DNA of 64,000 nucleotides, from assembly GCA_030272155.1 (NCBI GenBank), contig CP126202.1, forward strand, positions 1,302,001-1,366,000. Direction: 5' to 3'. Shown here one piece after another: positions 86 through 64,000 of this stretch. The position numbers were made by a program, and so were the translations under genes. Position 1 is the stretch's first letter. Every line of letters begins with the position of its first letter. Below the pieces are notes generated by a model, which saw nothing but the letters and a program-made list of their open reading frames with translations, searched no databases and was not told where the DNA came from. Source of the stretch: Tetradesmus obliquus (lineage: Eukaryota; Chlorophyta; Chlorophyceae; Sphaeropleales; Scenedesmaceae).

Positions 86-1157
86 CTTCTTTGTACACGT
101 ACACGCGCAGCGGGTCCAAGCTCATGACAGCCACATACACGCGCAGGTCAAACTTGCGGCCGCCAATCAACAGCGGGTCCGGAATGTAGTGCTGCAAAAT
201 GACGTCATTTAACGAAGCGGCATCTAGCGCGTGCGCGTCAGTGACAACACGGACACCGCGCCCGCGTGATGATGCGACAGGCTTGCGGATGTAGGTGGTC
301 TTGGGGTTCTGCGCGAGGTCCAGTTTGAAATCTTCTAGGTCGGCTGGCAGGATGAAGAACCTGCGGGAACATCGAACACAGCATTTGCAGGACAGTGTAA
401 GACTTGCGTATGTAGGTGGTCTTGGAGTTCTGCGCAAGCTCCAGGTCGCCTGGCAGGATGAAGAACCTGATTGTGTCGAAAGCATATGCGGCATGCACAC
501 CAGTTATGTTTTGGAAACTGAACTGCAGACAAACACACAGCCACTGGTGCAGCTGAACAGCAACTATGCAGCAGGTGCGTCACACGTCTGCTTAGGTGTG
601 AAGTTGGCCACTTGCTCACTTGGGCACAAAGTTGAAGGCGGCAGGGTCGCGCGTGCGCCGTGCTGCAGCTGCAATGTTGCGGTACAGCCTATCCTTGCGC
701 CCGAGCTCCCAGGTGCCTGCGCGCACATGATGCATAGAAGCGGACAGACATATGCACAAATCTCAGTGTCATGCTCGCTTGAGCGGTACAGCCTGACCTT
801 GCGCCCTTATTCCCAGGTGCCTGCACGCATAGCAATCGCGTGGCAGCAGACAGACACAGGCACAGTTGTTGCTCACATGCTTGCTTGTGCAGTGCAGCCG
901 TTCCTTGCGCCCCAGCTCCTAGGTGCCTGTGTGAAGGCAGAACATGCAACACAGCACAACACATCGCACTGTAGACATCAACACCGCTTGCGCTGCAGCA
1001 GAACTGATGCTGTGCAAGCTGCCACTCACACCTGGGAAGTGGTTGTGGCGCTGCCAGGGGTTGATGCCTGCCAGCAGCTCAGGGGGCGCCAGCGAGCCCC
1101 ACAGCACACCCCAGCTGCTGCCCTTGGTGGCCTTGAAGCCAGAGGCACGGAACACCT

Positions 1158-1205
<48 letters not shown>

Positions 1206-3237
1206 TCAGCAGATGATGGCAAAGCACGCAGGCAATGCATCGGCAGGAGGAGACATCACCGTGCTTGAAGCTGATGGCTGCCATCATGGCAAAAACAATG
1301 TGCTGCTGTGACACAGCATTTGCCACACTGCTGACGCAGCGGCATGGCTGCACACAATGTATCAACCTGTTGCTGCTGGGGAGCCCACAGAGCCAGCATG
1401 CTGCACACTTCGGATTGCATTAAACGCTTCTTACCTGCTTGACACTGTTGTTAGCAACACCAAAGTATCTCACACACATCTTCACACTGTGCAGAGGTAG
1501 CAATTCATTGCTCTGCTGTGGCTGCATCTGAGCTTCTAGCTGCTGCTCCTGCTGCCCTGTAGAAAACAGCAGCGTAGGCGGTGTTGCTGGAAACTGCGGC
1601 ACCAGCAGCTGCAGCGTACGTTGCAGCTTGGTCTTGCATCCAGCTGGGCTGTCACTCGTGTTTCTTCTGCTTTGTGCTGCGGTTGGACTGGCTGGGCTGC
1701 TGCTGGCACCACCTTCACTGAAAACAGGATGCTCTGCTGCTAGCTGCATGCTGCTGGCAGCGGCTGGGCTTAAAACAGCCTGAATGTCTGCTGTTAGTGC
1801 TGCCACTACAGCAGGATGCTGCTGAGGCAGCCACGCAGCAGGATCAGCAGCCACACACACGCTGCTGTATGTTGCTGTGGCCCTGCTGTTCGTTGTACTG
1901 GGCTTGCTTTGCTGCTTGGGCCTGCCACTTGCTACTGCAGTTGTGCCGCTGCCATGCTGTAGTAATAGGCTGCTACTGCTGCTATCGCTGGTACATCTGC
2001 TGGCCCTGCCGCTACTGCTTGTACTGCTGCTCCTGCTGCTAAGTGGTCTGCTGCTGTTATCTTCACTGCTACAGCTGCTGCTATCACGCATCTTCTCTTT
2101 GGACGCAGATGAAGTCCGCCTGCTTGCCCTGGACTGCTGCTGCTGCTGCTGCATTTGTGTGCCTGCTGCAGCTGGCACTGGTAGCAACTGGTTGCCAGTG
2201 AGGCCCAACTCCAAGCCACATGCCCGGCTAGGGTTTGCCACTGCCTGCAGTGCCAGCATGGCCTCTGCAGAAGAGCTTGCACTGCAGCTGTCCTGCTTGC
2301 CTCCTGCTGGGGTTCCTGCAGCTGCCTTGTACCCTGCACCAGCCCGCAAACGGCAGCTGCTGCTGCTGTTCAGCTTTGCATCAGTTGAGTCAACATGCCC
2401 TGCAGAACTCCCTGGAGTGCTCAAAGACCGTAGCACTGCTCTGCTGCTACTGCTGCCCGTGCTGTTGCTGTTGCTGCTGCTGTTAGTACTGGTAAAGCTT
2501 CTGTCGGTGGGTTTATGCTCTGCTGTTGCCTGGCTGGTTTGTCTCCTGCTGTGACAGGCTGCTTGCAGGAGCTGACTGGGTTGCTGGACAGCGCCACTTG
2601 CAGGAAGCCTAAAAGATGAGCTGCTGCTTAGCAACCGCCCTGCAGCCACTGGTAGTGTAGTGCTGGCTGCTTCCGCTTTTGCTGCTGAGTAGTCGTATGC
2701 TGACGGTGCACTCAGGTTTGCAGGAGACAGTGCGTTGCAGGGGTTGGTGCAATTGCCAACACGGGTCTTGATACTTGAACTCTGATGCGCTATTGGCTGC
2801 TGAACTGGTCTGCTGCTATTGTCGCTGGTAGTGGCTTTAGCATGTTGTGCTTTGGCCACTCTGCTACTGTGCCAAACTCTTCCTGCTGCTGCATGCTCGT
2901 CTGCTGCCTGGCTGGCTTTCGCTGCTGCTGAGCTGCTGTAGGGTTTGGCCATACCTTGGGCTACTTGGACAATGGCATGGTCTCGCACCTCTAGCTGTCC
3001 TGCTGCTGACATTCTCTGCAGCAGTTCATCCAGCAAGATGTATGATGGCTGGCCCATGCTGGTGCTGTTGCTGTACACAGTAGTTGCAGGCGTGTACTGC
3101 TTGCTGCTTGCCGCTGTCGCCATGGTCCCAGCTGCTGCTTGGTTAGCCTGCTTGATTCGTTGCTGAGCCAGCAACGCTGCTGTTGAGGCAAGGCTGCTTC
3201 CTGCTGCAACAATGGCTTCATGTTGAGGCTTGCTCAT
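86..3237 (-). CDS. TTLL: TTLL4-like tubulin ligase (polyglutamylase-type), C-terminal part outside window
   Basis: Model: complement(join(86..360, 620..716, 1032..1155, 1435..3237)), all junctions in frame. TTLL enzymes add glutamate or glycine to tubulin tails in cilia and cytoplasmic microtubules, using an ATP-grasp fold. Seen: NHFPG then TWELGRKDRLYRN, NFVPKFFILPADLEDF, KTTYIRKPVASSRGRG (nucleotide-binding strand) and LLIGGRKFDLRVYV with DPLRVYVYKEG. These blocks come in the family order and resemble TTLL4 most. The first exon encodes about 545 residues of Ser/Ala/Gln-rich low-complexity sequence before the first TTLL block (PTLLFSTG). I chose ATG at 3237 because it is the first ATG in this frame; only a TTG lies upstream. 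The gene continues past position 1: the donor after 86 is CTTCTTT/CAC read on the minus strand. Family call is firm; substrate specificity is inference. Confidence 0.88.
403..469 (-). repeat. Echo of the 5' end of TTLL exon 86-360
   Basis: Minus-strand sequence repeats an acceptor CAG and then encodes FFILPGDLELAQNS and KTTYIRKS, a diverged copy of the first 22 codons of the exon that starts at 360. It lies 43 bp upstream of that exon. It ends abruptly after the copied part, so it cannot replace the exon. Confidence 0.85.
781..932 (-). repeat. Two echoes of the 5' end of TTLL exon 620-716
   Basis: At about 781-825 and 877-932 the minus strand carries an acceptor CAG followed by copies of the block encoding TWELGRKDRLYRN. 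One copy has TAA in place of the Leu codon and the other TAG in place of the Trp codon, so neither can be a coding exon. Both lie in the intron just upstream of the real exon. Confidence 0.85.
1156..1202 (-). repeat. (CTG)n tract forming a 3' splice site
   Basis: About fifteen CAG units on the plus strand are CTG in the sense of the TTLL gene. They end directly in the CTGCAG acceptor of the exon that starts at 1155. No other pyrimidine tract is present, so the triplet run appears to serve that role. Confidence 0.75.
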
Positions 3238-5158: not shown

Positions 5159-6804
5159 CCACGGCCACGCATCCTTACCCTGTGAGCTCCGCCTTGCAGC
5201 GCCGCGCCCCCTCAGCGTCCATGAACTCCACCACAGCCACACCCTTGGACTTGCCTGCACGACATGACAGACAACAAAAGCACATTTAAGGATCAAGGCT
5301 GGAGTAGCAGCAGCAGCAGCAGCATCCATGAACTCCACCACCGCCACACCCTTGGACTTGCCTGCACATGAAACAGTGCATACACGAACAGAGGCAGCAA
5401 CAAGAATAGGCTTACGAAGGAGCAGTGGACATGCAGTAGATGATATGTTCTGTTTGTTCTCTAGCATCCATGACTCCCACCACAGCCACACCCTTGGACT
5501 TGCCTGCAACCAAAACATCGCATAGACAGAGGCAGCAACAAGGGAGAGGCTTACAAACAAGGCACTACAGAACGCAATGTGTCATGTTTGTTCGCGGCAG
5601 CTTAACAAAATGCTGCACATGATTGATGCAGACCAGCCACACCACGCAAGAGACACATGACAGCTCAAGGGACGCATACAAAAGCGCACCTGAGCGCCCA
5701 GCAAGGGGCGGCGCCTGGCACATGCAACCACCACCTGCAGCTGACACTGTAAGTGTGCTGCCCATTGAAAACGCAACAAAAAACGTAGCACCCACCTGTT
5801 GCTCGCTCCTCCACGAAGCGGCAGCTGGTCACTGGGCCAAACTCTGTCACTGCAGCCTCCACCGCAGTATCAGTGGTCCACCAGTGCAGGTTGCCGATGT
5901 ACACGATGGTGTTGTTGACATGCGGCGAAGCAGGCGCCTGTGCAGGCAGGATGCACAGCAAGACACAGTCATTGAGAAACAGTTAGCACGCTGGTGCTGG
6001 TGACACGTGGTGAGGCAGGAGCCCGTGCAGGGTGCCAATGTGGGGCAGCGGCAACACACAAGGAACAGCAGGGACGAGGATCACTTTATCAGGTACAGCC
6101 AACACGGATGTTCTGTTCGCGTGCGGCGAGGCGGCGGTTGCACGCGCAATTGCAACAAAAAGACACAGTACTCAAGAATCAAGCACAACGGTGCTGGTGG
6201 CATGCGACGAAAGACGCGCCTACGCCGGCAGCTGCAGCAGAGGGCGGCTGTGCAGGCAAGCAACACCACAGACGCTGCCGGGCAACAATGCAGCTTTTTA
6301 ACGCCATGTGTCGCATTCCTAGACCAATCTGCCACCTCTCACCTTCTGTTCCTCTTCTTTGACTCCATCTTGTGCTGCTGCTGATGCTGCTGCTAACGCT
6401 CCTGCTGCTTCCGCGCTGCCGTTTGCACCGCCGCCATGCCCCATCGCCTCTTCAAACGAAGGTATGCGCTGCCTGCCGCTGCCGCCGCCTGCCGCGCCGC
6501 CGCGCTGCGCCTGCCGGGCCAGGGTGCGCCGCTGCCTCGCATTCAGCTTGCTGTATGCAGCAGGCGAGATGCCTGCAGCCTCCGCTGCAGCAGCATCTGC
6601 CTCTGCATCACCAGCAGCAGCAGCAGCAGGCGGCTGCTGAGGAGGCGGCGGCAGCTTCACTGGCTGTGGCTTCTTCATGATTGGCTGCTGTGCTTCTGCA
6701 TCCTCATCTTCATCCACTAAGCCAAGCAGCAGGTTGTCGTCTGCTGCTTCGCTGTTCTGCTGCGACATGCGCCGCGCGGCAGCAGCAGCAGCGTCGTCAC
6801 TGTC

Positions 6805-13200: not shown

Positions 13201-15906
13201 GTCGTCTGCACCTTACCCGGTGACTAGACAAACAGCCTTGCACGCTGGGTTGTTGGACGCCGCTGTCGATTGTGTTCGCGGCGCTGAGCTCACCTCACTC
13301 CTGCTGCCCTGCCCTCTCGCACTGCTGCCGCACCTTACCCTGGTGACTAGACAGACAGCCTTGCGAGCTGGCTTTTTGAGTTCTCTGATGCTGGTAACAG
13401 GACCATTCTATACAGTGCACAGTGCACACTTGTGTATGCGGCGCTGAGCTCCTTTCCTACTGCTGCCCTGCCCTCTTACAGGGCGAGTTTGATGACCAGC
13501 AGGACTGGTTCTACAACTCGTACACGCACACAGACCACTTCATGTTTGCGGACTGCTTTGAGGACTATACACTGTTTGGGCCTCACTACAAGCAGCTCTG
13601 GCAGGCGAAGGGAGTGGCGGGGATCAGGGAGCTGCTGCCGCGGCTCAAGATCCCCGCCAGCCTGATGCGAGGGCTGAATGGCAAGAAGCTTGTGCTTGTG
13701 CAGCTGGGAGAGGGCAAGCGGGTGAGTGGGGCATGGTTTAGGGTCGACGTTTGAGGGTTCTAGGGTTATGGGTATTGCGTCGACTCGTTTTCCTGGCACG
13801 AGAAGGGCGTGGCGGGTATCCGCGCCTCAGAAACCCTGCTGGGCTGATGCGAGGGCTGAATGGCAAGAAGCTTGTGCTTGTGCAGCAAGGCGAGGGCAAG
13901 CGGGTGAGCGGACTTGCAGGGTTGAGGGTTGATGTTTGTTGTTCGTGGATGACATACGGGGGCTGCTGCTGCGGATCCACAACCCTGCAGGGCTGTTGCG
14001 AGGGCTGAACGGCAGAAGCTGATGCTGGCGCAGCAGCAGGGAGAAGGCAAGCGGATAATGAGGGTCGGCTTTAGGGTTAATTGCTCAGGGATGTATGTAC
14101 AGCTGTTGATGCCGTAACAAGTTGTCATGTTACAATGTGGTGTGCTGCTTGTGGCTGGAGGCGCTGTAGGTGCTTCAGTCGGCAGGCTTTCCAAGCTATG
14201 TATGACAGCCGGGTAGGTTTCACACATGACACTTGAATTGTGCTGCGCGTGCCTGCAGGTGCTGCACGTGCTGGAGCCAGTCTGCGCTACTGGTGGGCCG
14301 TCGTATGACATTTGAATCGTGCACTGCGCGTGCCTGCAGGTGCTGTACATGCTGGAGCTGGTTTGTGGCGGCGGCGGGATCTCAAACCGCGGGTTAAAAT
14401 TGATTCAGAAAGAATGAATCGGAATCTGACCATGGCTGCAGGTGCTGTACGTGCTGGAGCTGGTTTGTGGCGGCGGCGGGATCTCAAACAGCGATTTATA
14501 TCTGCATTTGAAAGATTGAATCTGAATCTGACCATGGCTGCAGGTGCTGTACGTGCTGGAGCTGTTCTGCGGCGGCGGCGGCCTGGCATACCTGGCCCAG
14601 TTTAATGACAAGGTGGCCATCAAGCACGGCTGGGCCAACGACATCAACAACTCGGCGTCTGCTACCTATACCTGCAATCACCCCGAGGCGTTCGTGAGTA
14701 GCAGGCTGCTGCGGTGGCAGTGCTAGAGTAATAAGTGACATGTGCAGTTGAGGCCTTGAGATGCAGCATTGCATGCAGCAACCCGGCCTCTGCCATGTGA
14801 TCCTGCAACCACCCTGAAGCATTTGTGAGTAGCACGCTGCTGCTGGATTGGTAATGAACCCAGTGCTGCAGCCAGTGTTGCGGGTGCGCTTGCCAGGAAG
14901 CTGCAAGGTTTCCTGCATCATGTGTCACAAATGAGTTGCCGCTGCTGCTGCTGCTGCCGCCACAGATATCGTGTGTGGGCCTGGAGGAGCTCACGCAGCT
15001 GTGCATGAAGTGGGACCCCAATCTTCACACATCTTGCGCTGCTGCTGCTGCTGCTGCAGATGTCGTGTGTGGGCCTGGAGGAGCTCACGCAGCTGTGCAT
15101 GAAGTGGGGCCTGGAGGTGATCCGCTACTGCGGCAGCGGCTGGATGCAGATCCCGGAGCTGCAGCAGCTGCGCAGTGGAGGTCCTCAGCGCAAGTTTGCG
15201 CGCACTCACATCCCACAGGTAGGCTTTGGTTCCCTAGGGTACCGCTCGCTAGCAGAGGGCATGCCATGCAGGGCACAGTGGCGGCTGCAGCCTGCTTATT
15301 TGGCACGTCCCTCTGGTGGGCATAAAGAGAGCGGGTAGTTAAGTGTGGGTCCGAGCACCATCGTATACGGTACGAGTTGAACAAGCCACAACAGGATGAG
15401 CGCATCATGTGCGTTCAGGAAGTAAGCATTGGTGTGCAAAGGCGTTGCGCGATAGCAGAGCGCATGCCATATATTGAGAGCAGCTGTGGGTGCAGCCGGC
15501 CATGGCACATGACTTACTTCACCACACTGCCTATGGCAGGATGGGTGACAGGAGTTGCATCCATGCATTGCCGACCACTCGCATCCATTGCCTACCGCTT
15601 GGATTGTTTCCAGCTAAGCATTGCTCAAGAGCTGTGCCTGTGCATGACCTGCGGGCGCGCAGGACGTCTCCTGCCTGAACAGTCAAAGTTTGACCATACA
15701 TTGACCGCGTTTGACCGAGTGTTGACTGTGTTTGACCGTCGTTGACCGCGCCTGCAGGGCGTGGGCGTGTGGGGTACCACCATGGGCAAGGCTGGCACTT
15801 CGTCTGACGGCCACACTGCAGCAGCAGCACGGGGCGAGAAAGCGGTGCGGGAGTACCGTGCACAGCAGGGCCTGCCGCCGCCTGTGTTTGGTGCTGCTGA
15901 AGATGA

Positions 15907-15942
<36 letters not shown>

Positions 15943-18900
15943 AGACTTTGAGGTCATCTGCAAGCGGCTGCCCAAGGTGGGTCTGGTGTGTTCACAGCAG
16001 ATTGTGTAGCAAGGCACTCAGAGGGGCAGAGCTGCTTTTGATAAGGCTAGCAGTGGCAGCAGCGGGTGTGATGTATTGGCTAATAATGAAAAGCATAATT
16101 TGCAATGAGCTGGCAGCAAGAGCAGCAGCATCTGGGTGCACCACTTTGAGGGCCAACACCACCTCATGCTGTGTGCAATGCAGCCGCCGACAGAAACACC
16201 GTCTGCTTTGCTGCCTGCTGTGCTGCCTGCCTGTACTGTCGTTGCCCTGCACACAACAGATCTCCCCGGCAGACAGCAGCGATGCAGTGTCAGTGGAGGA
16301 CTTCATGCCTCGCCTCGCAGAGCTAGAGGAGGATGAGGATGGTGCTGCTGCTGCTGCTGCCGGCAGCAGTGCAGCGGGCGCCAGGGCCAAAGCAAAAAAG
16401 GACAAGGAGAAACAGCGCATGGAGGAGGCCTACGAGCAGGCGCGGCAGCAGCAGCAGCAGTGCATTGACGAGTGCATCGCCTTCAACAAGCAGCACGGGC
16501 GCGGCAAGGTGCGGCGCTGGATGCAGCTGCTGCCGTGGGTGGCGCAGAAGCAGTGCTGCTGTAACGACAGAGCGACCAGTGCTGCCTGCAAATATCTTTA
16601 CGCTGAGCCAGGCTGTGCTGCTGCTGCTGCTGCACCCTCTGCTGCTGCAGGTGTTGGAGGTGCGCCATGTGCGCACGGACTGTGTGTTGCATGTCACTGC
16701 CTTCGTGCTGAGCCAGGCTTTGCTGCTGCTGTTGCTGCTGCTGCACCCTCTGCTGCTCTCTGCAGCTGCTGCTCTCTGCAGCTGCTGCAGGTGCGCGACG
16801 TGCGCATTACGTCTGTGCTGTGCATGCCACTGCCTTTGTGCTGACCGTGGCTTTGCTGCTGCACCCAGTACTGCTGCTGCTGCTCGCTGCAGCTGCTGCA
16901 GGTGCGCGACGTGCGCATTACGTCTGTGCTGTGCATGCCACTGCCTTTGTGCTGACCGTGGCTTTGCTGCTGCACCCACTACTGCTGCTGCTGCTCGCTG
17001 CAGCTGCCTCAGGTGCACGACGTGCGCATTACGTCTGTGCTGTGCATGCCACTGCCTTTGTGCTGACCGTGGCTTTGCTGCTGCACCCACTACTGCTGCT
17101 GCTGCTGCTCGCTGCAGGTGCTGGAGGTGCGCGACGTGCGCATCAAGGACTGCGTGGTGCGCGTGAAGCAGGGCAGCAGCCGCAACCAGATCGAGGAGGG
17201 GCTGACTGACTGGGAGTGCTGGCTGGAGTACGAAGTGCGGCGCCAGCGGTGAGGCCATGCTGTTGATTGTTGAATTTCTAGGCTCAAGTTGCGTGAAGCA
17301 GGGCAGCAGCTGTGAAAAGATAGACCAGGGCCTCACCGAAAGGGATTGCTGGCTGGACTACGACGTCAGGCTATGATGTTGATGGCTGGATGCCTAGGCA
17401 GAGAGCATGCATGGCTGTGTTGCAGTGCAACCAGATCAAGAGGCTGACTGACGGGGAGTGCTGGCTGGAAGAGAGCATGCATGGCTGTGTTGCAGTGCAA
17501 CCAGATCAAGAGGCTGACTGACTGGGAGTGCTGGCTGGAATATGAAGTGCGGTGCGAGCGGTAAGTACATAGAGTGGTGTGGTTGGCTGCTGTTGTGTGA
17601 TAATCAGGCGATCGGCTGAGGTCAGGCGGCCTGCAATGCAATGTCCTGACAGTGCTGCCTTGCTTTGGGGTGCTGCGCCAGCCCATACTTTCACATCAGT
17701 CATGTTGCTGGCTGCTCTGGCTTCCGCTTGCAGGAAGGGCGCCAGCAGCAGCAGGAGCAGCGATGACAGCAGCGAGTGGGCCTGGGAGCACCAGGCGCTG
17801 CTGTGGCGGCCGGATGGCGTGGCACCCATGCAGCGCTTCATGCTGGCCATGCTGGCAGACAAGCAGATCCCCATGCCGGGGGATGTGGGCGTGCTCACTG
17901 GCGGGCCGCCCTGCCAGGTGCGCTGCTGATGCGAAGTTTGTGGTTGACGCGTACTGCGCAGTTGCTGCTGCCTGCGCTTGCTTGATGTGATCCCGCAGTG
18001 TGTGCCTGCTATGCCTCAACAGGCATGCCAAGCTGCAGGGTGTGCTGCACCCTGCAAAGCAACCCTTGCGCATGCCTGCTGTGCAACAACCCTGCTGCCT
18101 GCCTGCCTGCCATCCATGCAGAACGTGAGCGGCTTGAATAGGCACGCCAAGCAGCAGGAGATCCTGAACGACCCCAAGAACCGCCTGGTGACGGCCTACA
18201 TGAAGCTGATCGGCTACCTGCAGCCCAGCTTCATCTTCATGGAGCAGGTGCGCTGAGGGTTTGCTGGGTGTAGGGGTACCTAGGTTATGGTGGGCGATGC
18301 CTGCCTGGTGTTACGGCTGTCACAGGCCCACATGAAGCTGATGCTTGCAACCCAGCTACGTACATGAAGCTGGTTGCCTACCTGTAGCCCAGCTTCATCT
18401 TCATGGAGCAGGTGGGCTCAGGGTGTACCGGGTTTACAACTTGTTATCATTGCCTCGTTTGATGGCCTACATGCAACGAAGCTTGGAGCTGCAGCCCCCT
18501 GCTTCATCTTCATGGAGCAGGTGGGCTTGAGGTTTGCTGGGTGTAGGGTTGCCTAGGTTTACGGTGGGCTCTGCCTGCCTGGTAGGTTTACGGCTGTCAC
18601 GGTCCTACATGAAGCTGATGCTTGCAACCCAGCTGCATACATGAAGCTGATTGCCTACCTGCAGCCCAGCTTCATCTTCATGAGCAGGCGGGCTTAGGAT
18701 TTACCGGGTTCTGTGTTCCTTGTTTGGGGTTTCTGTGCCTGATTGTTACATGTGTCAAAGGCATACATGAAGCTGATTGCCTACCTGCAGCCCAGCTTCA
18801 TCTTCATGGAGCAGGTGGGCTGAGGTTAGGTGGGCTTAGGGTTTGGCTTTGCCTGCTGCTTGAGGTGACTGTTGACTGGTCACGGCGTACATGAAGCTGA

Positions 18901-20193
18901 TCCGGTACCTGCAGCCCAGCTTCATCTTCATGGAGCAGGTGGGCTTAGGGTTTGGCTCAGCAGCAGGTGACTGTTGCTTGGTGACGGCGTACATGAAGCT
19001 GCTTCAGCACCTGCAGCCCAGCTGCATCTTCTTGGAGCAGGTGGGGTACTGTGCCTGCTGGGTTTGAGAGAGGGTAGTTTATGAGATGCTGTTTGTTGTA
19101 TGACTGTTTGACCGGTGACGCGTGTATGAAGCTGATCGGCTACCTGCAGCCCAGCTTCATCTTCATGGAGCAGGTGGGCTGAGGGTTTGCTGGGTGTAGG
19201 GGTGCCTAGGTTTACGGTGGGAGATGCCTGCCTGGTGTTACGGCTGTCACAGTCCTACATGAAGCTGATGCTTGCAACCCAGCTGCATACATGAAGCTGA
19301 TTGCCTACCTGCAGCCCAGCTTCATCTTCATGAGCAGGCGGGCTTAGGGTTTACCGGGTTCTGTGTTCCTTGTTTGGGGTTTCTGTGCCTGATTGTTACA
19401 TGTGTCAAAGGCATACATGAAGCTGATTGCCTACCTGCAGCCCAGCTTCATCTTCATGGAGCATGTGGGCTTAGCTTCGCTGGGTTGAGGGTTGAGCCAT
19501 ATTGTTTCTGATGTTGTTGAGTCGCTCCATGAAGTTGAAGCTGGGGGCTGCAGGTAGCCGATGAGCTGCATGTATGTTGACAGTCTGTCGACTGTTGACA
19601 ACATATATGCAGCTGATCGGCTACCTGCAGCCCCCAGCTTGTTCTGCATGCAGCAGGTGGGCTTAAGGTGTGCTGTGCCTAGTTTTGGGTGGACTGTTGA
19701 CTTTCAAGTGATTGCCATAGACTTGAAGCTGATCGGCTACCTGCAGCCCAGCTTCATCTTCATGGAGCAGGTGGGCTCAGGTTTCAGGTTTTACAACTGG
19801 TTGTTCCATCAACTTGTTTGATGGCCTACATGCAGCGAAGCTTAGAGCTGCAGCCCCCTGCTTCATCTTCATGGAGCAGGTGGGCTTGAGGTTTGCTGGG
19901 AGGCTTTGCGTGCTGCTGTTGTTACTGTTGACCTGTCAACAGCCTACACAGAGTGCATTGGGTCAACTGCATTGAATCAACTGCAGCCCAGCTTCATCTG
20001 CATCGGCTAGGTGTGCTGCTGTGCCTCCTGCTGATTAATGCTTGCTGATGCATGCGTTGTGCTTGTTGTGCCTGCAAGTTGTGAGCGTTGACTGCTGACG
20101 GCCTACATGCAGCTGGTCATGCTCCTGCACCTGCATCTTCCCTTAGCAGTGGCTGCCAAGGACCCTCCCTGACCTGCTGCTGTGCCCTGGTAC

Positions 20194-27302: not shown

Positions 27303-27335
<33 letters not shown>

Positions 27336-27461
27336 ACTGCTGCAGGGCTCCCCTGACTTCCACGTGTTTGTGGGCCTGTCTGACAATGCACTGCTGCTGC
27401 CGCTGCTGCTGCTGCAGGGCATCCCGGACTGCCACGTGTTTGTGGGCCTGGCTGACATTGC

Positions 27462-27492
<31 letters not shown>

Positions 27493-27692: not shown

Positions 27693-27754
<62 letters not shown>

Positions 27755-40635: not shown

Positions 40636-42170
40636 TCACAGGATACCCTGCTTCTGTGCTGCTGCGGCTGCCAGAGTGGTGCTCGCAAAAATGTCTTTGG
40701 CGCTGGCTGCCTCAAAGCCGTCACGGCGCTGGTGCTCCTGCAGCTGCCCCGCTGCTGCCAGGTGTGCGTGCTGCGGCTGCGGCTTGCGCTCGACAAACTC
40801 CATGTAAGCGCCCACCACCGGGTGCACCTGCAATATATGCAAGTATGTTGTTATGGTGCTGCAAAGGCACGGGTTTGTGGGGCAATTACAAAAGCGAATG
40901 CTGCGGCTGCGGCTTGCGCTCACAAATTCCATGTAGGCGCCAACCACCGGGAGCACCTGCCGCAACACATGCAGTACAAGAGTAAGGTTGTGTAGGATTT
41001 GAAGTTGCATCACATTAGCAACAGAGAAGGAGTGCTGTGGCTTGCTGCTTGCGCTCAACAAATTTGACGTACGCACCTACCACCGGGTGCACCTGCAACA
41101 GCACATGTGCATTATAATGATGTTGCGAAAGCAAGACGCCAGTGAATAGAATGCAAATGCCGCAGCAGCTGCTTGTGCTCGATATATATCACAACTAGGC
41201 GCCAACCACCCGGTGCACCTGCGCACGCCATGACATGTAAGTGATGAGAGACAGCTGTTGTCAGACAGAAACAACAACCATTACTCCTGCTTTTTGACAA
41301 CAGCTGAAACACACATCACAACATCATTTCACTGCGTTGTCCACAAGGCCTTGTCCCTAGGGCACAACTATGCAAGCGTGCCTTGCGCACCTCTGCTCCT
41401 GCAGAGGTGAAATCCATGACATCAGCCAGGAAACATGCCTCCCCAACAACCACAAGCCCTGTCAGAAGAGATAAAGATGGAAATGTCATGCAGTAGGACT
41501 GCCCGGCTCACCTCTGCTCCTGCAAAGGTGAAGTCCATGACATCAGCCACAGTGGAGCATTGCAGCAGCCCGCTGTCAGGGGTGACCTGCAGCAGCAGCA
41601 GCAGCAGCAGCAGCAAACACTTTAAGGAATAACACCTGTCCACAAGGCTGACGGGCGACAGCAGTGCACTGCACGATGCTGCGCCGCCGAGCGGGACAGC
41701 AGCCCAGGCAAAGACAGTAATCCATGCTCCGCATGATCGGCCAAGCCACACAGCGCTGCGATTTGCTTTTCAATGCCAGGTGAGCAATCTGTTTCAAGCA
41801 GTCGATGGAGCAACTTGCTGTCCTGAAAAACCACAGAAAGATGAGCAAATCATCACATCAGCAGAAGAAAAACCACAGCAGGGAGGCGTTTCATGCGCGC
41901 CTTGAGCAGACCCCCTCCCTCATGCAGCTTACAGCCCTTCATCAAAAAGCCCTTCATCAGGAAGTGCTGCCCACCAACGGCAGAGTAACAAGTAACTGTG
42001 GTGACAGCAGGCATGCATCCCCATCGCACCTTCATCAGCCCTCCCTCCTCATTCAGCTTGAAGCCCTTCATCACAAGGTCATTCGCAAACGCGTAGATGT
42101 CGCCGCTGTGCCCAGCAATGTTGTGTACGCTCAGCGCCGTGTGGTTGAGCCGGTAGCCGTTGACCAGTAC

Positions 42171-42842: not shown

Positions 42843-44583
42843 TAGCACCTTCAGCATTTTACAGTGGAGCACATTGTCAGATACCATGCTACACTGTGCT
42901 GTACATGCTGCAGCGATAGCTCCCACGTTCAGATGCAGAAGATTGCGTGACTTCACCTGACATGCTCGTTGATTCGACCCGTATCATCACTTCTGAAGCT
43001 GGACTCGAGATCTCGGAAGCAGCAGCCGCACCTGCAGCTGGCTGACAAACATACGCGGTAGCGTGGTGTACAGTTCACGCGGCGGGGCGTACCACGCCGC
43101 CAGCAGGTGTGTGCGTGGGAAGCTGTAGTAATCTTGCCGCGTGTAACCGAAGGCTTCCAGGGCAGAGCCTAGGGAGTCAAGGCCCAAGCCAGGCACCTGC
43201 ACACATGAAAACCAACAAGGAACGGCAGCGCATGCATTACGCTGGGTTTAGCTGCATGTAACCAGTGCATCTATATGTGCTACACGACCAGCAGGTGTGT
43301 GCGCGGGAAGCTGTAGTAATCCTCAGGAGGCAGGCTGCCGCGTGTAATCGAAGGCTGACCGAAGGCTTCCAGGGCAGAGCCTAGGGAGTCAAGGCCCAGG
43401 CCAGGCACCTGCACACATGAACAACGACAGGGAACGGCAGCGCATGCATTACGCTGGGTTTAGCTGCATGTAACCAGTGCATTGATATGTGCTACACCGC
43501 CAGCAGGTGTGTGCGTAGGAAGCTGTAGTAGTCTTGCCGCATGTAGCCAAAGGCTTCTAGCGCAGAGCCCAGGGAGTCGAGGCCCAGGCCAGGCACCTGC
43601 AACCAAACAAGCACAAAGCACAGAACACAGCACGTTGGCTGCAGGCGCATTCAACAAGCACATTCAGGGGCCTCCAGCGCAGGGCTCAGTGACTTGGGAT
43701 GGAGAGCAGGGAATCTAACCATGCAGTCAAAAGGGTGTTCAGAGGTGTGATGAAGCTCCAATATGTGACTTAAACATCAATGCAAAGATGGACAGTTCAA
43801 CATAAAAAAAACAAATTTCAATGCAGGTTCAGAGCTCAAAGGACAGCTCACCCCGAAGGTGCGGAAGGCGAAGTGGTCATGGAAGAGCTGGTCCTTGCCA
43901 TAGCCCTGGGTGTACACGCGGTCAATGACCTGCCTGGCTGATGGGGTGCAGGCTGCATGTGCATTTTCACAGGCACCGCGGCAGCAGTGCAGCACAGTCA
44001 TTCAGTCTGAGTGTACACGCGGTCAATGACCTGCCTGGCTGATGGGGTGCAGGCTGCAAAGCAGAAATGCAGCGTTGGAAATGCAGCAGTGCAGCCCATT
44101 CAATCAGTACGAGTGTACACGCGGTCAATGACCTGCCTAGCCGATGGCGTGCAGGCTGCAGGCATAGCAACAGGCAGCATAACGGCAACACAGCTGAGTA
44201 TGATATTACAGCATATGGCAGGGCGGCATTAGCTGAGCCTGGCATTAGCTGAGCCTGGCATGCCAAAGTATCGACTAGGGTTTCACCAGCTTGTCAGCAA
44301 GCTGGAGCAAGCAGGAAGTCTGCCTTATCAGCTAGCTTGACTTAAAGTACATCTGTGCAGCAGCTAGGTACTCATCCAGCTTTGAGCTGGCATCCAGTCC
44401 TGGCAGCTGCCGCTGCATCAGCCTGTGTTTGCATTCTGGCAAAGCGAACGGCACAGCTGGCTGCAGCCAGCACGCAGCTGTTCAGCATGGCGCACCCAGG
44501 TAGCTGGATAGGATGTTGTCTAAAGAGGCCTTGAGCAGCCGGTTGGGTTCCTGCAAGGACAGCGATTGCCCTTGAATAAGCAT
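40636..44583 (-). CDS. DUF1338 2-oxoadipate dioxygenase/decarboxylase (HglS/YdcJ, plant FLO7 type)
   Basis: Model: complement(join(40636..40827, 41512..41586, 42030..42171, 42469..42701, 43032..43196, 43852..43952, 44496..44583)); 331 aa, in frame. Bacterial HglS is a non-haem Fe(II) enzyme converting 2-oxoadipate to 2-hydroxyglutarate in lysine catabolism; rice FLO7 is the plant relative. Seen: FHDHFAFRTFG with His56 and Arg60, FGYTRQDYYSFP, AAWYAPP, ESEYGAWVLVNGYRLNHTAL with His206, GFKLNEEGGLMK, TPDSGLLQCSTVAD, AYMEFVER with Glu278 and EHQRRDGFEAASAKDIF. The two His, the Glu and the Arg correspond to the metal ligands and substrate Arg of HglS. Exon order and spacing follow the plant homologues. 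In-frame Met codons extend upstream to about 44703, so an N-terminal organelle presequence is possible. Function in this alga is inferred. Confidence 0.87.
40890..41222 (-). repeat. Three echoes of the 5' end of DUF1338 exon 7
   Basis: Minus-strand copies of the acceptor and VHPVVGAYMEFVERK occur at about 40905-40965, 41045-41095 and 41175-41222, upstream of the real exon start at 40827. The most distal contains TAG in place of the Tyr codon. Confidence 0.93.
41395..41435 (-). repeat. Echo of the 3' end of DUF1338 exon 6
   Basis: GCTGATGTCATGGATTTCAC and TCTGCAGGAGCAGAGGTG on the minus strand copy the exon end and donor at 41512-41560. Confidence 0.88.
41893..41965 (-). repeat. Echo of the 3' end of DUF1338 exon 5
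   Basis: Encodes MKGCKLHEGGGLLKA, against MKGFKLNEEGGLMK at the real exon end (42030). A partial second copy of MKGF is fused in front of it. Confidence 0.88.
42176..42222 (-). repeat. (CTG)n tract forming the acceptor of DUF1338 exon 5
   Basis: CAG units on the plus strand, CTG in gene sense, end in CTGCCAG at 42172. Confidence 0.8.
42372..42396 (-). repeat. Echo of the 3' end of DUF1338 exon 4
   Basis: AGAGTACGGCGCGTGGTGAG on the minus strand copies the exon end and donor GAATACGGCGCATGGTGAG at 42460-42482. Confidence 0.8.
42728..42840 (-). repeat. (CTG)n-rich tract upstream of DUF1338 exon 4
   Basis: Interrupted AGC/CAG units on the plus strand, CTG in gene sense, within 140 bp upstream of the acceptor at 42702. 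Confidence 0.75.
43270..43600 (-). repeat. Two echoes of the 5' end of DUF1338 exon 3
   Basis: Copies of 100-110 bp (VPGLGLDSLGSALEAFGY and DYYSFPRTHLLA) at about 43490-43600 and 43280-43412, with flanking intron also duplicated. The real exon starts at 43196. Confidence 0.94.
43996..44160 (-). repeat. Two echoes of the 5' end of DUF1338 exon 2
   Basis: GCCTGCACCCCATCAGCCAG and GCAGGTCATTGACCGCGTGT recur at 44012-44058 and 44114-44160. The real exon starts at 43952. Confidence 0.93.
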
Positions 44584-48758: not shown

Positions 48759-51700
48759 ATGGCTGGGGCAGACGGCAGCAGCTGGTGGAGGAAGTCAGCA
48801 GACACCAGCATGCCTGCAGCATCTCGCAGCAATGTCAGTAGCAGCTGGACGTCGCAGAACCGAAAGATTGCAGCTGAAGATAACAGAGAAGACCGGAGAA
48901 GCAGCGCATCTAGCACCGTGGACAGGCAGCAGCACCAGCAGCACCAGCAGCACCAGCAGCACAGCCAGTTGTCCCGAGCAGCAGCAGGTGCAATCACATC
49001 CCAGCTGCGCGCAGCTCCCAATCCTCAAGAGCTCCAGCGGTTGCTGGACCGTTGGGGTTCGCAGCTAACAGCTCCACACATCTCTGCAGCACTGAATGCA
49101 CTCTCTAACATGACACATGAACACCCACGTGTCTTAGAGCCACTGCTGCGGCAGCAGCTGCTGCCAGCACTTGACAGCTTGATTCAGCAAGCAGAGGCAG
49201 CTACACACTTGCCATCAGCAGCAGCAGACAGCTCTGGTTTAGACAGCAGCATTACGCAGCAGCAGCAGCAGCCCCAGCTTGACTCCAGGTCCTGTGCCGT
49301 CGTCCTGCAGAGCCTATCACGCTTGCAGGAACGCAGTGGCTTGGCAACACCCACCAGTACAGCATATGACCTGCTGCTGCACTTCCTACAGCCTAGCGTG
49401 CTGCAGCAAGCCATACCGCAGGGCATCACCATGGTCACAACAGCAGCTGCCAAGCTGCACATCCCTGCGCGTGATGTGCAGCTGGAGCAGCTGCTCACAG
49501 CACTACTCGATCTTGAAGCCCGCAGAACAGCAGACAGCTGCAGCAGGGCACAGCAGCTGGAGCCCATGTATGTGTCTCAGACACTGTGGGGAGTAGCCAC
49601 CATGCTTGCAGCGCAGAAGCGCACTCCACCCAACGGCAAGCTGCTGCATCTCTTCCAAGATGTAGCAGCGCTGCTGACGCACCCGCAGCTGCAGCTCCTT
49701 CAAGCAGCAAAGCCAGTGGAGGTTTGTAACACGCTGTCAGCCTTTGTCATTGCAGAGCTTCCTGCAAGCAGCTTGCCAAGCCCAGGCTTTGCAGGAGAGC
49801 TGCTGGGCTGCCTTGCAGCGTTGCGGCACCTCAGGAGGGCAAGCGCAAGGGACATCAGCCGCACGCTGTGGGCAGCAGCAAAGCTGGGAGCAGCGGTGGA
49901 AGCAGCTGACTGCAACGCGCTGGTGGCTATGTTCTGCAGCAGTGAAATGCTGCGCAGCGCCAATGCGCAGGTGAGGATGCGCTCAATGTGAAGGCTGTGG
50001 CAGCTGTACAGTGAAGACATTAGACGCTCCATTGGGGCGCGGGGCCGATGGCGTTGATGCTATGGCTTGATGGGTAACATGATGATGAGTGAAGACATTA
50101 GTTTTACAGATTGCGACACCTGTATGCCATGTTCTGCAGCAGCGAGGTGCTGCGCAGCGCAAATGCGCAGGTGAGGATGGACCATTTGATATATATTATC
50201 TGCAGTTTGTGGTGCCGTGCATTGGAGCGACACCTGTATGCAGGGTGTGGCGCTAGCCTGCATCCACAAGTGCGTTTGGGGGTGAGCAGCAGCAGCTATT
50301 TCTGCCTCATTCTGATTGCGTGCACATGACAATAATGCGTCATGCACAACCCCACCAATGCTACGCCTGCCATGTGACTTACAGCCGTGTTCTTGCTGGC
50401 TGCGCACCTGTCAACCGCGCCTTGCAGGACATCGCAAACCTTTTGTGGGCGCTCGGCACCCTGCAGCAGCACGAGGCAGTGACCAGCCACGAGCTCTGCC
50501 TGCTGGCAGCAGCGCTGCTGGATCAAGCTCAGCAGCGGCGTGCTGCACCTCAGGAGATCAGCACTACGCTTTGGGGCCTAGCTACACTGCAAGCTCAGCT
50601 GCCAAGGCAGCTGCTGGTGCAGATCCAGGAGCAGTTTAGGCAGCCGCATATCTTGCAGGAAATAGCAGCAGATGAGACTGAGTCCCTGGGGCTGGTCAAC
50701 ACGCTGTGGGCTGCAGCAGCGCTGCACAAGGCGGGGCTGGCTGGTGCAAGCAGGAACTGGCGAGCACTGCCTTGCGCAGCAAGACAGGCAGCAGCAGCAG
50801 CAGCGGAGGCAGCAGCAGCAGCAGCAGCTCCAGAGCTGCAGCAGCCAGTGCTGCCTCCAGCAGCAGTGCAGCAACTGACAGACATGCTGACAGCACCTGG
50901 GCGGCTCTCACACCTCACGCCTTGCTCTGTCGGGCTGTGCCTTTGGTCAACGGCCACGCTCGGCGGCAGCCTGTCGTTTGACCAAGTGCTGGCGCTGGTC
51001 AAACGCTTCCTGCAGCCCAGCTGTCAGGCGCTGGCCCTGCCTTTGAACTTCACAAACACAGTGTGGGGCTGCATACGCCTGGGCAGGGTGGATGTCCTGC
51101 AAGAGCCAGGGTTGCTGCAGCAGCTAGTAGCTGCATACTTTGCAGCTGGGGCACCTGGCGGTGCTTGGAGCGGCAGCAGCGACCCTATGGCTGCTTCTAT
51201 GCTGCTGTGGGCGATAGCGCGCGCATCTAAGAGCAGTACGCACTGGGCAAGGCCAGCTCACAGCAGGAGGCTTGGCAGGCCAGTAAAGCACCAGCAGCAG
51301 CAGCAGCAGCAGCAACAAGAGTTTGCAGTGCAGCAGCAGGACAGCCAGGGACAGGAGTTCAGTGCTGTGCTGGTTCCCCAGAAGCAGGTGCAGCAGCTGC
51401 TAAGCATCTTCCTGCAGCGCAGCAGCATCAGCCAGGCAGACAGCGTCAACATGTCTACCGCGCTGTATGCAGCCGCTGCACTGGGCCTAGCAGTGAAGGC
51501 AGATGACCTCAACTGGATAGTCAAGGCCTACATGGCAAAGGTAGAGGAGGCTGGCGCAACAACCGCAGCACTGATGATGTATGCCATCACCAAGCTGCAG
51601 CGGTCTGCGCTGCTGCAGGCCAGCAGCAGCACCAGCAGGGGCATGCAGAGCATGGATACTGCTCAGGCTGACTCGCTGGTGCCAGTGCTGGTGCAGCTTA

Positions 51701-60776: not shown

Positions 60777-60811
<35 letters not shown>

Positions 60812-61326
60812 GCGGGGTCTGCACTTGGCCCCGCCTTTCCTTGTTGAAGTTTATGTGCCTGCAGCAGTAACCACCTACCGCCTGGGGCGCATGCCGGCAA
60901 AGCTGAAGGCAGCAGAAAAGGTGAGCAGAAGTACTCGCAGAGGCAGAGGCACGCCTAACAGGCGATGGTGGGCTGCAAACATACCGCCCCAGCAGCCGTA
61001 GCACTGGCTAACTGGGAGTTGGGGCGCATGCCCCCAAAGCTGAAGGCAGCAGAAAAGGTAAGAAGAGCCGTGCCTGGCAGGCATTACGCTAATACGTTTG
61101 CGCAATCAAGCTGCGCTGCAGCTGTTGTCACATACCACCACGGTGCATGCCCGCAACACTGAAGTCAGCAGGGTTTGCCCCGCAGCACATCAGCGAAAGT
61201 AACCGCGTGTGTTCATTTGCCGCTCTGCAGGAGCTGGCAGATTGCACGGCGTGCCCCAGGGACTGCAGCGTGGACAGTCCTCCAAATCCTGCAAAAGCCC
61301 TGGCTGAGATTGACTTTCAAATTCAA

Positions 61327-61373
<47 letters not shown>

Positions 61374-62429
61374 AGGAGCTGGCGGACTGCCGTGCCTGCC
61401 CCAGGGACTGTGGCAGTGACACTGTCCACATGCCAGTACATGGTTGCTTTCTGTCACTATTTCGTCACTTTAGCATGCTGCTGTACAATTGCAGGAGCTG
61501 TCAGACTGCCGCGCCTGCCCCAGGGACTGCGGTGTGGACATGCCTCTGAATGCCCCTTGTGCACTGGCTGAGATTGACTCTCAAATCCAACTATGCTGCT
61601 GCTGCTGCTGCTGCTGCTGTCAGACTGTCGCGGCTGCCCCAGGGACTTCGGCGTGGACAGTCCTCCAACTCCCCTAAAAGCACTGGCTGAGAATGACCGT
61701 TGAATCAAACCATGCTGCTGCTGCTGCCGAGCAGGAGCTGGCGGACTGCCGGGCGTGCCCCAGGGACTGCGGCGTGGACAGGCTGGCAGGGCAGCTGGCA
61801 CCACTGGCTGACATTGTGTCACTGCTTTACATCATATCACCATGCTGCTGCCTACAGGAATTGGCAAACTGTAAGGCCTGCCCCAGGGACTGCGGCGTGG
61901 ACAGGTTGGCAGGGCAGCTGGGCATGTGCGGGGTGGGGCGCAAGCTGCTGGTGTCGACCGTGGCGCCACACTTTGCAGAAGAAAGCCCCCTGCAGGTAAG
62001 GAGTGCAGGTTCAGCCGTGGCTAGGCAGGCAATGGCTTGAAGCATTGTCAGTAGTGTGGGGCGCAAGCTGCTGGTGTCGACCGTGGCGCCACACTTTGCA
62101 GAAGAAAGCCCCCTGCAGGTGAGCCGACGTGACAGCATCCAGTGTGTGGACTGCAGGCTGTTTCAGTGTGCTGTCAACAGTGGGTCGTCACTGGACAGGC
62201 GAGTGCCGTTATGTGGTGTTGTCAGTGGGGTGGGCCGCAAGCTGCTGGTTTTAAAAGTGGCATCACACTTTGCTGAAGAGTCGTCGCTGCAGGTAGGGTG
62301 TCACCTGTGTCGTTGGGCAGGCAAAGGCTTCAAGTGTTGTCGGTGGCGTGGGGCATGAGCTGCTGGTGTCATAGGTGGGACCACACTTTGCTGCCTTTTC
62401 TAGGGGCGATGTCTGAGACTGAGCATGGA

Positions 62430-62495
<66 letters not shown>

Positions 62496-63844
62496 GCCCT
62501 ATTGTAGGGCTGGAACGGCAGCGGCACGGTGTCTCTTCTCTTTGTGCAACCTGATGCTGCTGATACCCTGTGCTGCTGCTGCTGTTGCTGCAGGGCTGGA
62601 ACGGCAGCGGCACTGTCTTTTTCTCCATGTGCAACCTGCGCTGCGTGTTCTGCCAGAACTGGGACATCAGCCAGAAGCGAGCAGGTGGGCAAGGGGAAGA
62701 GACACAAAGCCAGCTCATGTGCAGCACCTAATGCCCTGTGTTTGACGCTGCAGTGGGATGATCATGTGCAGCAGAAGGCTTTGCTGCAGGGTTGTGGATG
62801 CAGGTGTCAGTGTGACTGAGCACCGCACGCAGCAGAAAAAGATGTTACCTCTCACCATGGCTTGTCAAGTCGCTGCCTTCATATATAGATGCCGCAGGTG
62901 CCTGGAGCCAGCAGGCGCAGAACCTGAAGCAAGTGATGCAGCTGATGTGCTGAATAACACAGTAATGGCAGAGGCAGCAGCAGCGCAGGCCAAGCAGCCA
63001 CTAGTATTTGGCTGTCCCCTTCAAACTGTCATATTTACATTCCCGCAGGCTTTGAGCTGTCAGGGGTGGAGCTTGCTGACTGGATGATGAAGCTGCACAA
63101 TGCAAGTTTCAAGTGCACTTTCAAGTTTCCACTGGATATCCGAGTTTCTGTGGCATGTGCTGTTCCCGCAGGCTTTGAGCTGTCAGGGGCGGAGCTTGCT
63201 GACTGGATGATGAAGCTGCAGGACTTTGGAAACTGCCACAACATCAACTTTGTGACACCAGAACACGTGGCTCCTCAGGTGCGGAGCATGTCATAAACTT
63301 GCCTTATAGAATTTGTATCATAACATGGGATGTGCTGTGCAGTAGAGCAGTAGGAGGTGGTGCAACGAACGATGCAAGCCTGCTGCTTTGGATGCTGCTG
63401 CCTGCATGCGCATGGTAACTGCACGAGGCATTTCAAGCAAAACTGCTTGCAACTGTATCATTGTAGCAATTGCTTGGGATGCCGCCTCCACATCAGGGCC
63501 TGAACATGTCCATGATCTACAACACTGCTTCACAGCTGCTGCATCTGCTGCTGCTGCTGCTGCTGCTGCTGATGCTGATGCTGATGCTGATGCTGATGCT
63601 GCTCCTCTCCCCACCAAAGCTGGTGGAAGCCATTGCAGCAGCAGTGGAGAAGGGCCTAAACATTCCTATCATCTACAACACCAGCGCGTATGATGGCCTG
63701 CCCTCACTGGCCCTCATGGATGGCCTTGTTGACATCTACATGCCAGACTTTAAGTTTTTCACGGCAGAGTCAGGCCAGCGCTACGCAAAGGCGCGCGACT
63801 ATGCAGAAGTGGCAAAGGCAGCGATCAAGGAGATGCACAGACAG
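60306..63844 (+). CDS. PflX-like radical SAM protein (pyruvate formate-lyase activase homologue), 3' end outside window
   Basis: Model so far: join(60306..60920, 61858..61995, 62594..62684, 63172..63278, 63620..63844), in frame, 392 codons; the last donor is at 63845 and the gene continues. The family (COG1313) is homologous to glycyl-radical-enzyme activases and splits S-adenosylmethionine at a [4Fe-4S] cluster; substrates are unknown. Seen: an extra Cys cluster C-x2-C-P-R-D-C (210-217) with Cys229; APHFAEESPLQ; WNGSGTVFFSMC then CNLRCVFCQNWDISQ with the CxxxCxxC cluster Cys264, Cys268, Cys271; NINFVTPEHVAPQ; NIPIIYNTSAYDG; VDIYMPDFKFF; AIKEMHRQ. The N-terminal 205 residues are not part of the family: a possible presequence, then poly-Gln with 20 or more consecutive Gln. 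The position-60306 ATG is the first in frame. Bacterial ancestry is an inference. Confidence 0.88.
60661..60726 (+). repeat. Coding (CAG)n poly-Gln tract in the PflX-like gene
   Basis: About 21 CAG units in frame as Gln in exon 1, with a shorter run at 60780-60812. Confidence 0.9.
61012..61180 (+). repeat. Two echoes of the 3' end of PflX exon 1
   Basis: 61018-61060 re-encodes LGRMPPKLKAAEK with a GTAAGA donor. 61138-61170 is a more diverged copy. The real exon end is 60920. Confidence 0.92.
61225..61800 (+). repeat. Five echoes of the 5' end of PflX exon 2
   Basis: Copies of the Cys-cluster segment (ELADCRACPRDCGVD) with acceptors near 61230, 61374, 61494, 61620 and 61734, at 115-145 bp spacing. 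Two are preceded by CTG tracts. The real exon starts at 61858. Confidence 0.96.
62050..62400 (+). repeat. Three echoes of the 3' end of PflX exon 2
   Basis: Copies of VGRKLLVSTVAPHFAEESPL with GTGAGC or GTAGGG donors at about 62056-62122 and 62228-62297, and a shorter one at 62348-62400. The real exon end is 61995. Confidence 0.95.
62430..62560 (+). repeat. (CTG)n tract and echo of the 5' end of PflX exon 3
   Basis: About twenty CTG units, then TTGTAG and a 45-bp copy of the exon start (GGCTGGAACGGCAGCGGCAC) that then loses frame. The real exon starts at 62594. Confidence 0.93.
63045..63105 (+). repeat. Echo of the 5' end of PflX exon 4
   Basis: CCGCAG then GFELSGVELADWMMKL copies the start of the real exon (63172) with one substitution, then diverges. 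Confidence 0.94.
63492..63535 (+). repeat. Echo of part of PflX exon 5
   Basis: AGGGCCTGAACATGTCCATG and ATCTACAACAC copy the exon segment encoding KGLNIPIIYNT, upstream of the real exon (63620). Confidence 0.85.
63568..63603 (+). repeat. (GATGCT)n tract near the acceptor of PflX exon 5
   Basis: Six GATGCT/CTG-type units end just before CCCCACCAAAG at the acceptor (63619). Confidence 0.85.
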
Positions 63845-63937
63845 GTGCGCTTTGGATACTGGCTGCACAGCGCACAGTGATCGATCGTTGGATCTGATTA
63901 CTAATTGGACACATAACATGTGTGCTGCTGGTCTGTA

Positions 63938-64000
63938 ATGCCTTCCCTGGCACTCATGGATGGCCTTGCTGAGATTTACATGCCAGGTTTCAAGCTTTTC
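63938..64000 (+). repeat. Echo of PflX exon 5 running off the window
   Basis: CACTCATGGATGGCCTTGCT and ATTTACATGCCAGG copy 63710-63770 (ALMDGLVDIYMPDFKFF) after the real donor. Confidence 0.92.

Follow-up and report, generated by a model that had tools for sequence, protein, structure and literature searches.

Intronic copies of exon edges, anchored at splice sites, in the green alga Tetradesmus obliquus

Why should introns hold pieces of the exons that adjoin them? The question is raised by a window of 64,000 nucleotides of Tetradesmus obliquus DNA (contig C12, positions 1302001-1366000, within a 104.66-Mb assembly of 17 contigs), in which a first-pass annotation described short exon pieces, each with its splice site, recurring in the adjacent introns of many genes. 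This recurrence is borne out here: in 304 kb of sequence that includes the window, 115 of 618 searchable exon edges have a copy of their own exon end in the adjoining intron. Plain decay after tandem duplication predicts a joint fading of the exon and intron parts of such copies, and this prediction fails. We tentatively favour boundary tandem duplications that have been kept alike by gene conversion seeded in the exon.

Extent of the copies

The main sample is formed by the window, 200 kb from contigs C1 and C2 and 40 kb from C13 and C7; extra stretches totalling 30 kb were taken from C2, C3 and C16. Exon edges were obtained from a self-trained gene finder based on a hidden Markov model (HMM), trained on these 304 kb themselves, which fuses or splits genes and labels some copies as exons. 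It converged on the donor CAG/GTG.G and the acceptor TGCAG/G (the slash marks the boundary) and predicted 688 splice sites, 618 of which are searchable edges. A copy was sought within 800 nt of the edge, on its own intron side, with a score of at least 35 bits (40 bits in the block-wise comparison). By the same search, no edge had a copy in shuffled introns and three had one in permuted introns. Wrong-side matches were found at 64 edges, which we put down to the gene finder labelling some copies as exons. The 115 sites hold 201 copies in total, with more than one copy at 49 of them.

A comparison of the window with itself by BLAST gave 152 repeat pairs, 141 of them within 5 kb, 15 of these being inverted. 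The edges of the window have 61 distinct copy intervals with identities of 73-98.5%, which agrees with the earlier count of more than 60; a few of them are mislabelled real exons (e.g., 26615-26688), and the long gene models leave further repeat pairs uncovered. It had also been stated that many copies contain stops or frameshifts. This is true of some copies and not of the majority: 6 intervals have a stop and 18 a frameshift, either being present in 24 of 61. The HMM placed exons over 15 of the 61 intervals, which leaves room for a minority of real exons among them.

The gene names used here are those of the first-pass annotation, except for CMT and PflX, and the assignment of repeats to genes was judged from translations. 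Among the eight genes listed there as affected, copies were found for TTLL, CPSF6-like, CMT, DUF1338, OPR and PflX. GST and MYND have only repeat pairs beside their models (for GST, 54838-55101, on the reverse strand, where 54838-54885 and 55054-55101 are 95.8% identical, and 55472-55807; for MYND, 34232-34459), and no copy was seen at any of the 6 edges of the GST model or the 10 of the MYND model. The genes listed as free of copies are indeed so, with none at the four edges of the helical-repeat gene or the four of the gluconokinase gene and no interval in RING-CH.

The polarity that had been described, with acceptor pieces upstream and donor pieces downstream of the real exon, is observed in 54 of 63 pairs. 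Three of the nine exceptions belong to one intron repeat of C2 and six lie at predicted exons that we judge to be copies. Part of this polarity follows by definition, as any piece that touches an edge and is located in the adjoining intron will show it. A comparison between exon edges and exon interiors had been proposed as a way to refute the pattern; for the 66 exons of at least 250 nt in the window, C1 and C13, copies were found at 11 of 99 edges and for 4 of 305 interior segments, and the pattern thus withstands this check.

The distribution along the genome is patchy. At 40 bits, a copy is present at 41 of 130 edges in the window, 46 of 178 in C1 and 23 of 75 in C13, and copies are nearly absent from C2 (1/209) and C7 (0/26; 2/26 at 35 bits). 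The extra stretches gave 1 of 19 edges in C3 and 0 of 15 in C16 at 35 bits. The copy density of the window is thus not kept up in the sampled C2, C7, C3 and C16, and the window is not typical of all sampled regions. Copies per gene are overdispersed (chi-square 99.4, 36 degrees of freedom; genes with at least four edges, outside C2 and C7). Outside C2, copy-rich genes have more exons and a higher GC content at third codon positions (GC3; rho 0.47, p 0.003), a trend opposite to an avoidance of copies in codon-biased genes. As for C2 itself, the stretch 4500001-4510000 differs from all others examined in being rich in repeats, with 30 direct pairs within its 10 kb, a GC content of 48% and no gene model of at least 100 amino acids. 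At 11.4-13.0 kb of the main C2 block, a predicted intron contains a diverged array of tandem repeats, the main intron-only repeat of the sample.

Several identities can be discarded for the copies. They are not complete mini-exons, as a far-end partner splice site is found in 26 of 80 (background 24%) and in 12 of 62 (background 17%). The link drawn earlier to intron gain from AGGT-containing duplications does not hold either, given that the copies lie in introns that already exist, without enrichment of partner sites at the far end. In-frame extension of the exons was rejected on account of the spacing, divisible by 3 in 66 of 155 pairs and in 34 of 98 sites, and of the stops present. The copies do not appear in the ClpR2 proteins checked (T. 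obliquus and three others) or in the PflX proteins checked by eye (T. obliquus and one other), in which the real exons are contiguous; the ClpR2 of C1 is 99% identical to T. obliquus OEZ85_007551, and the PflX of the window is 100% identical to OEZ86_004539 over 98% of the query. An introner family was rejected, with one of 44 spacers having a non-simple match outside its own locus in the 304 kb. So was a paralog or homeolog as source: an OPR exon (40 of 297 candidates scored) and a stretch of PflX matched the assembly at length only in the window itself, the other matches being short, and those of the CMT array elsewhere have at most 57 bases.

Edge-limited and tandem copies

The nearest copies of 93 edges in the window, C1 and C13 fall into classes according to their intron overhang, which is at most 12 nt in 45, at least 30 nt in 34 and intermediate in 14. 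The 45 edge-limited copies match only the exon and the splice consensus, and 38 of them do so at an exon identity of at least 0.85. Spacing is alike in all classes, starting from 85 nt and with 50 of 91 nearest copies at 100-160. The tandem duplication across the boundary that the first-pass annotation proposed is visible in the 34 long-overhang copies, of which the C1 block 19320-19859, with a 118-bp unit (98%), is an example; 45 others stop at the splice site.

How sharply they stop can be seen in PflX (forward strand). The donor-side copy 62056..62123 of the exon end 61995 is identical in 67 of 68 bases and then continues into unrelated intron, the donor being GTAAGG in the exon and GTGAGC in the copy. 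The acceptor-side copy 63040..63097 of the exon 63172-63278 (98.3%; 57 of 58 bases alike against 63163-63220) also has unrelated flanks, and an edge-limited pair in C13 has 49 of 50 bases alike. Over the 25 edge-limited donors, the final six exon bases match at 0.88-1.00 and the GT at 1.00, followed by 0.60/0.84/0.92 at +3/+4/+5, 0.28 at +6 and 0.36-0.52 at +7 to +10, with chance level beyond; the aligner imposes the mismatch just past the end of a match, but it does not make the ends cluster at +5. In the 19 edge-limited acceptors, the match is still 0.74 at -6 but 0.37 at -7. For 27 of 29 exon/copy pairs (the first 29 of 65, all in the window), the flanks are no more alike than random introns (p > 0.05).

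These observations were compared with 660 simulated duplications, with units of 100-160 bp and 0.15 indels per substitution, in which the exon was constrained and the intronic copy neutral; 596 of them were recovered. At an exon identity of at least 0.85, 38 of 80 real copies are edge-limited versus 15 of 460 simulated ones, and at 0.92 or more, 20 of 47 versus 4 of 255. Copy similarity is thus independent of flank divergence, as in gene conversion, although copying without flanks predicts the same. Third-position divergence hardly tracks the intron overhang (rho -0.15, p 0.15, n = 93, real copies only). In the simulation-contrast, class, codon-change, reading-frame and spacing, rate-ratio and overhang-correlation analyses, five edge families were removed (indices 55, 61, 328, 634 and 636); they showed no third-position bias, and their removal raises the third-position figures. 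One of the five is the CMT donor array at 18247, which we take to be coding on the basis of a motif. C2 and C7 were excluded from the simulation contrast, the class split, the rate ratio, the locus census and the main GC3 contrast. As pairs inside one family are not independent, bootstraps were performed by site or by pair.

Intron-only repeats are the second point on which neutral decay can be examined. Random tandem units in these genes would be intron-only in 45% of cases (among units that are within an intron or include one splice site), and simulated duplicates of this kind were detected in 131-147 of 150 trials, with 10-12% of the introns used already having a repeat. The census of repeat loci in the window, C1 and C13 gave 75 that involve an exon, 2 without exon and 6 outside gene models; one of the 2 exon-free loci holds 12 exon bases, and 4 of the 6 model-free loci are in stretches that we assign to genes named in the first-pass annotation. 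Simple neutral decay fails because edge-limited copies are far more frequent among the real copies than among the simulated ones and because intron-only loci, which would be no less harmless, are rare.

Weighing the explanations

We think that boundary tandem duplications kept alike by exon-seeded gene conversion are a possible explanation, a little short of a probable one. Short tandem duplications would arise across exon-intron boundaries. A copy placed inside the intron, past the working splice site, would be spliced out and thus be harmless, as the anatomy and the two proteins suggest, and this would give the polarity. Copy and exon would keep exchanging sequence by local conversion starting from the exon. 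Purifying selection would fix the exon and the splice consensus in the working copy and conversion would keep that block alike, letting the intron parts of the exon side and the copy side drift past recognition. The sharp edge at about +5 for donors and -6 for acceptors would then be due to only the selection-fixed block staying converted, and the good splice sites of non-exonic copies to conversion preserving the exon plus consensus. Exon edges would dominate the standing stock because intron-only duplicates, without a fixed partner, fade. The copies themselves would need no function. We infer conversion from features of the sequence, namely the sharp edge, the weak link between divergence and overhang, the rarity of the intron-only class and GC3. 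Biased gene conversion raises GC3, which is 0.820 at edges with copies versus 0.716 at those without (p 2e-21).

Several results weigh against this proposal, most of them concerning codon positions. The exon-copy differences at positions 1/2/3 are 58/50/143 for edge-limited copies and 34/16/89 for tandem ones, with third-position shares of 0.57 (0.50-0.65) and 0.64 (0.55-0.73), respectively. For an intact exon and a dead copy, simple arithmetic from codon-change shares sets a ceiling of about 0.46, and the neutral expectation corrected for context is even (0.34/0.33/0.33). With all families kept, the counts are 289/201/600 between exon and copy and 221/163/363 between copies. Conversion alone does not predict this bias. 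Copies that are unreadable in frame are equally biased (111/89/300), and the pairwise omega of 35 pairs with fully intronic copies is 0.28 (0.19-0.41), versus 0.47 when simulated. In families with at least two copies, the changes unique to copies are 120 nonsynonymous, 110 synonymous and 2 stops, and those unique to exons are 35 nonsynonymous and 52 synonymous, the neutral shares being 0.70/0.27/0.03. Some of the divergence looks as if exon and copy had both been under constraint, though most copies cannot be coding in place; such a pattern would be expected if alleles were the source of the copies or took part in exchange with them.

Aligned tandem arrays diverge by 0.087/0.059/0.155/0.143 at positions 1/2/3 and in the intron. 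The ratio of positions 1+2 to the intron, 0.455 (0.32-0.64), fits a neutral copy, and strong selection on the copies of these arrays was rejected on that basis. Their third positions diverge 1.5 times as much as the aligned intron, an excess that also disfavours conversion and that we put down to the selection of alignable introns. When edges of the same gene are compared, GC3 differs only weakly between those with and without copies (+0.049, p 0.08, n = 29), and GC-rich exons might instead duplicate more. Intron-only cases should be found among the young tandem arrays, unless conversion preserves those too, and C2 does have an intron-only array, with 10 pure-intron pairs in one intron region, C7 adding one pair. 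The regional pattern is likewise unexplained by conversion.

The third-position bias is what unequal repair or exchange between diverged homologs would explain. Such recombination would start in exons because only exons still match, and each copy would be a fragment of the other allele with its own splice site and intron. Functional yet different donors beside near-identical exon ends and unrelated intron flanks would also be accounted for, and a relative, Scenedesmus sp., is described as likely diploid (PMC7955037). However, with 63 of 63 exon bases identical at PflX 61995, the homologs would need to have the same exon and wholly different introns. Moreover, multi-copy arrays require many events, and the divergence of the copies is not of a single level (third positions, dispersion 1.47, p 0.02). 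We consider this explanation unlikely. It is also quite unlikely, in our opinion, that exon edges in some regions of this genome have a maintained intronic back-up set, with live splice sites, that trades sequence with the exon; in that case, exon ends and splice sites would evolve as small multi-copy families, not as single sequences.

Plain boundary tandem duplication followed by neutral decay, as the first-pass annotation proposed, fits the divergence of the tandem class, the polarity and the preference for edges over interiors. Yet it requires intron similarity wherever the exon is similar, and the edge-limited class contradicts it unless introns mutate far faster than the exon copies inside them. 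Its share of intron-only repeats should be close to the 45% given above, versus 2 of 77 assigned loci, which makes it improbable as a full account.

Selection for working second splice sites (decoys, poison sites or alternative exon ends) appears slightly more improbable. In its favour, GT is present in 25 of 25 edge-limited donors and AG in 16 of 19 acceptors, the intron part of the donor score has a median of 1.91, versus 2.08 for real donors and -1.87 for background GT, and the third-position bias described above also fits. The far ends without partner enrichment, the share of spacings divisible by 3 given above, the ClpR2 and PflX proteins without copies and the neutral rates at positions 1+2 of the tandem class all stand against it, as do the copy acceptors, which score 2.54 versus 3.85 for real ones (p 0.002).

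A copying process anchored at the splice site would produce the donor homology through +5 (+4 match of 0.84, versus 0.31 for unrelated donors) and the cliff after it; the short consensus would prime template switching or repair synthesis, and the edge of the exon would be copied into the intron with no intron sequence attached. Such a process leaves the third-position bias and the rarity of intron-only copies unaccounted for, and the spacing is like that of tandem units, so that we find it very improbable. Finally, an assembly artefact through haplotype switches or false duplications is hardly credible: the likely diploidy of the relative and exon-anchored false joins could yield partial duplicates, but the copies differ from their exons by 0-27%, form arrays of mixed divergence (six copies at 18361-19043) and cluster by gene and region.

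Copy sites in the window and their meaning

On the reverse strand, TTLL has acceptor-side copies at 783-829 and 888-929 (783..929), upstream of the exon with acceptor at 716, with 85-86% identity and one stop each. CPSF6-like (5320..5508, reverse strand) has them at 5320-5367, which is edge-limited with unrelated flanks, and 5463-5508, the exon acceptor being at 5254. Nearby, a 41-base inverted repeat (3492-3532/3760-3800, 97.6%) surrounds about 230 bp with long G runs, and this stretch, 3492-3800, might be a small mobile element. The repeat cluster at 13208..13476 (forward strand), of the control class, is the only one in the window that lies inside a model intron and is without exon sequence.

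CMT lies on the forward strand, and its exon order agrees with that of solved plant CMT enzymes. Three acceptor-side copies of the exon 14544-14693 lie at 14250..14479, with a tandem unit of about 102 bp, and donor-side copies of the exon end 17248 lie at 17291..17565 (17291-17366, 17427-17469, 17497-17565). After the exon end 18247, where the gene model is broken, a donor-side array covers 18361..20018, its six copies within 18361-19043 alone differing in divergence. Acceptor-side copies of the exon 22905-23099 start at 22134, 22242, 22381 and 22623 (22134..22730), in nested units of 125 bp and 262 bp. The exon end 24623 has two donor-side copies with a 216-bp tandem unit at 24750..25068. The real exon end at 26615..26688 is followed by edge-limited copies at 26861-26938 and 27042-27120, and a tandem array of exon-head copies with CTG runs before them occupies 27237..27718. 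In the same part of the window, 20350-20618 is a perfect 24-bp tandem repeat of 11.2 copies (Tandem Repeats Finder, 100% match), and 19524-19654, like 9471-9605, is near-palindromic (83% and 75% to its own reverse complement over 132 and 141 aligned columns, respectively).

DUF1338, on the reverse strand, has a donor-side copy at 41379..41428 (exon donor 41511), and repeat clusters in its region (43094..44160, at 43094-43601 and 43906-44160) are outside the long models. OPR has an edge-limited donor-side copy at 50126..50179 on the forward strand (exon end 49970). In the spacer of that intron, at about 50018-50088, a 72-base stretch is 86% alike to the C1 block 58815-58886 on the opposite strand and is probably a dispersed repeat. 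PflX has, besides the two copies described above, five acceptor-side copies of the exon 61858-61995 at 61225..61798; this exon is confirmed by the T. obliquus protein. Throughout the window, CAG/CTG trinucleotide runs are abundant and give Ala, Gln, Ser and Leu runs in the predicted proteins.

Some known systems have features in common with these copies. In intron gain (Rogers/Hellsten 2011; potato RdRp, PMC4974935), short intragenic tandem duplications touch splice signals as well, and the potato RdRp case involves a duplicated intron-exon structure. In the Rogers/Hellsten model, the duplicate supplies the GT and AG of a new intron, whereas the alga has copies in existing introns with no enriched partner site, many copies per gene and no intron homology in about half of the nearest ones. 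Tandem and mutually exclusive exons also form direct coding repeats in neighbouring introns with third-position-biased divergence. The copies of the alga differ from them in being exon edges with one splice site instead of whole exons, and in being absent from the mature proteins checked (four ClpR2, two PflX). In concerted evolution by gene conversion, copy similarity is likewise uncoupled from the flanks. The repeat also has higher GC, to which the GC3 of copy-bearing edges may correspond, the contrast within genes being weak. Here the repeat is an exon fragment with intronic copies and the edge of the unit is the splice consensus. Introner elements also rewrite introns extensively in a green alga, although the spacers here share no family. 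Splice-anchored partial exon copies were not found described in the open-access literature, as covered by titles and the starts of abstracts, which makes this a weak negative.

If the copies were nothing but leftovers of duplication, a clear numerical expectation would follow, and it fails here. The copies are a countable test bed for the birth, homogenisation and loss of short intragenic duplications. If the conversion reading is true, the copies confuse gene prediction, as the 15 window intervals called as exons illustrate. Exon-end GC3 would be raised, and ready splice sites would be supplied for new exons. Above all, introns would store sequence that is exchanged with exons, and substitutions in exons and splice sites would have to be read differently.

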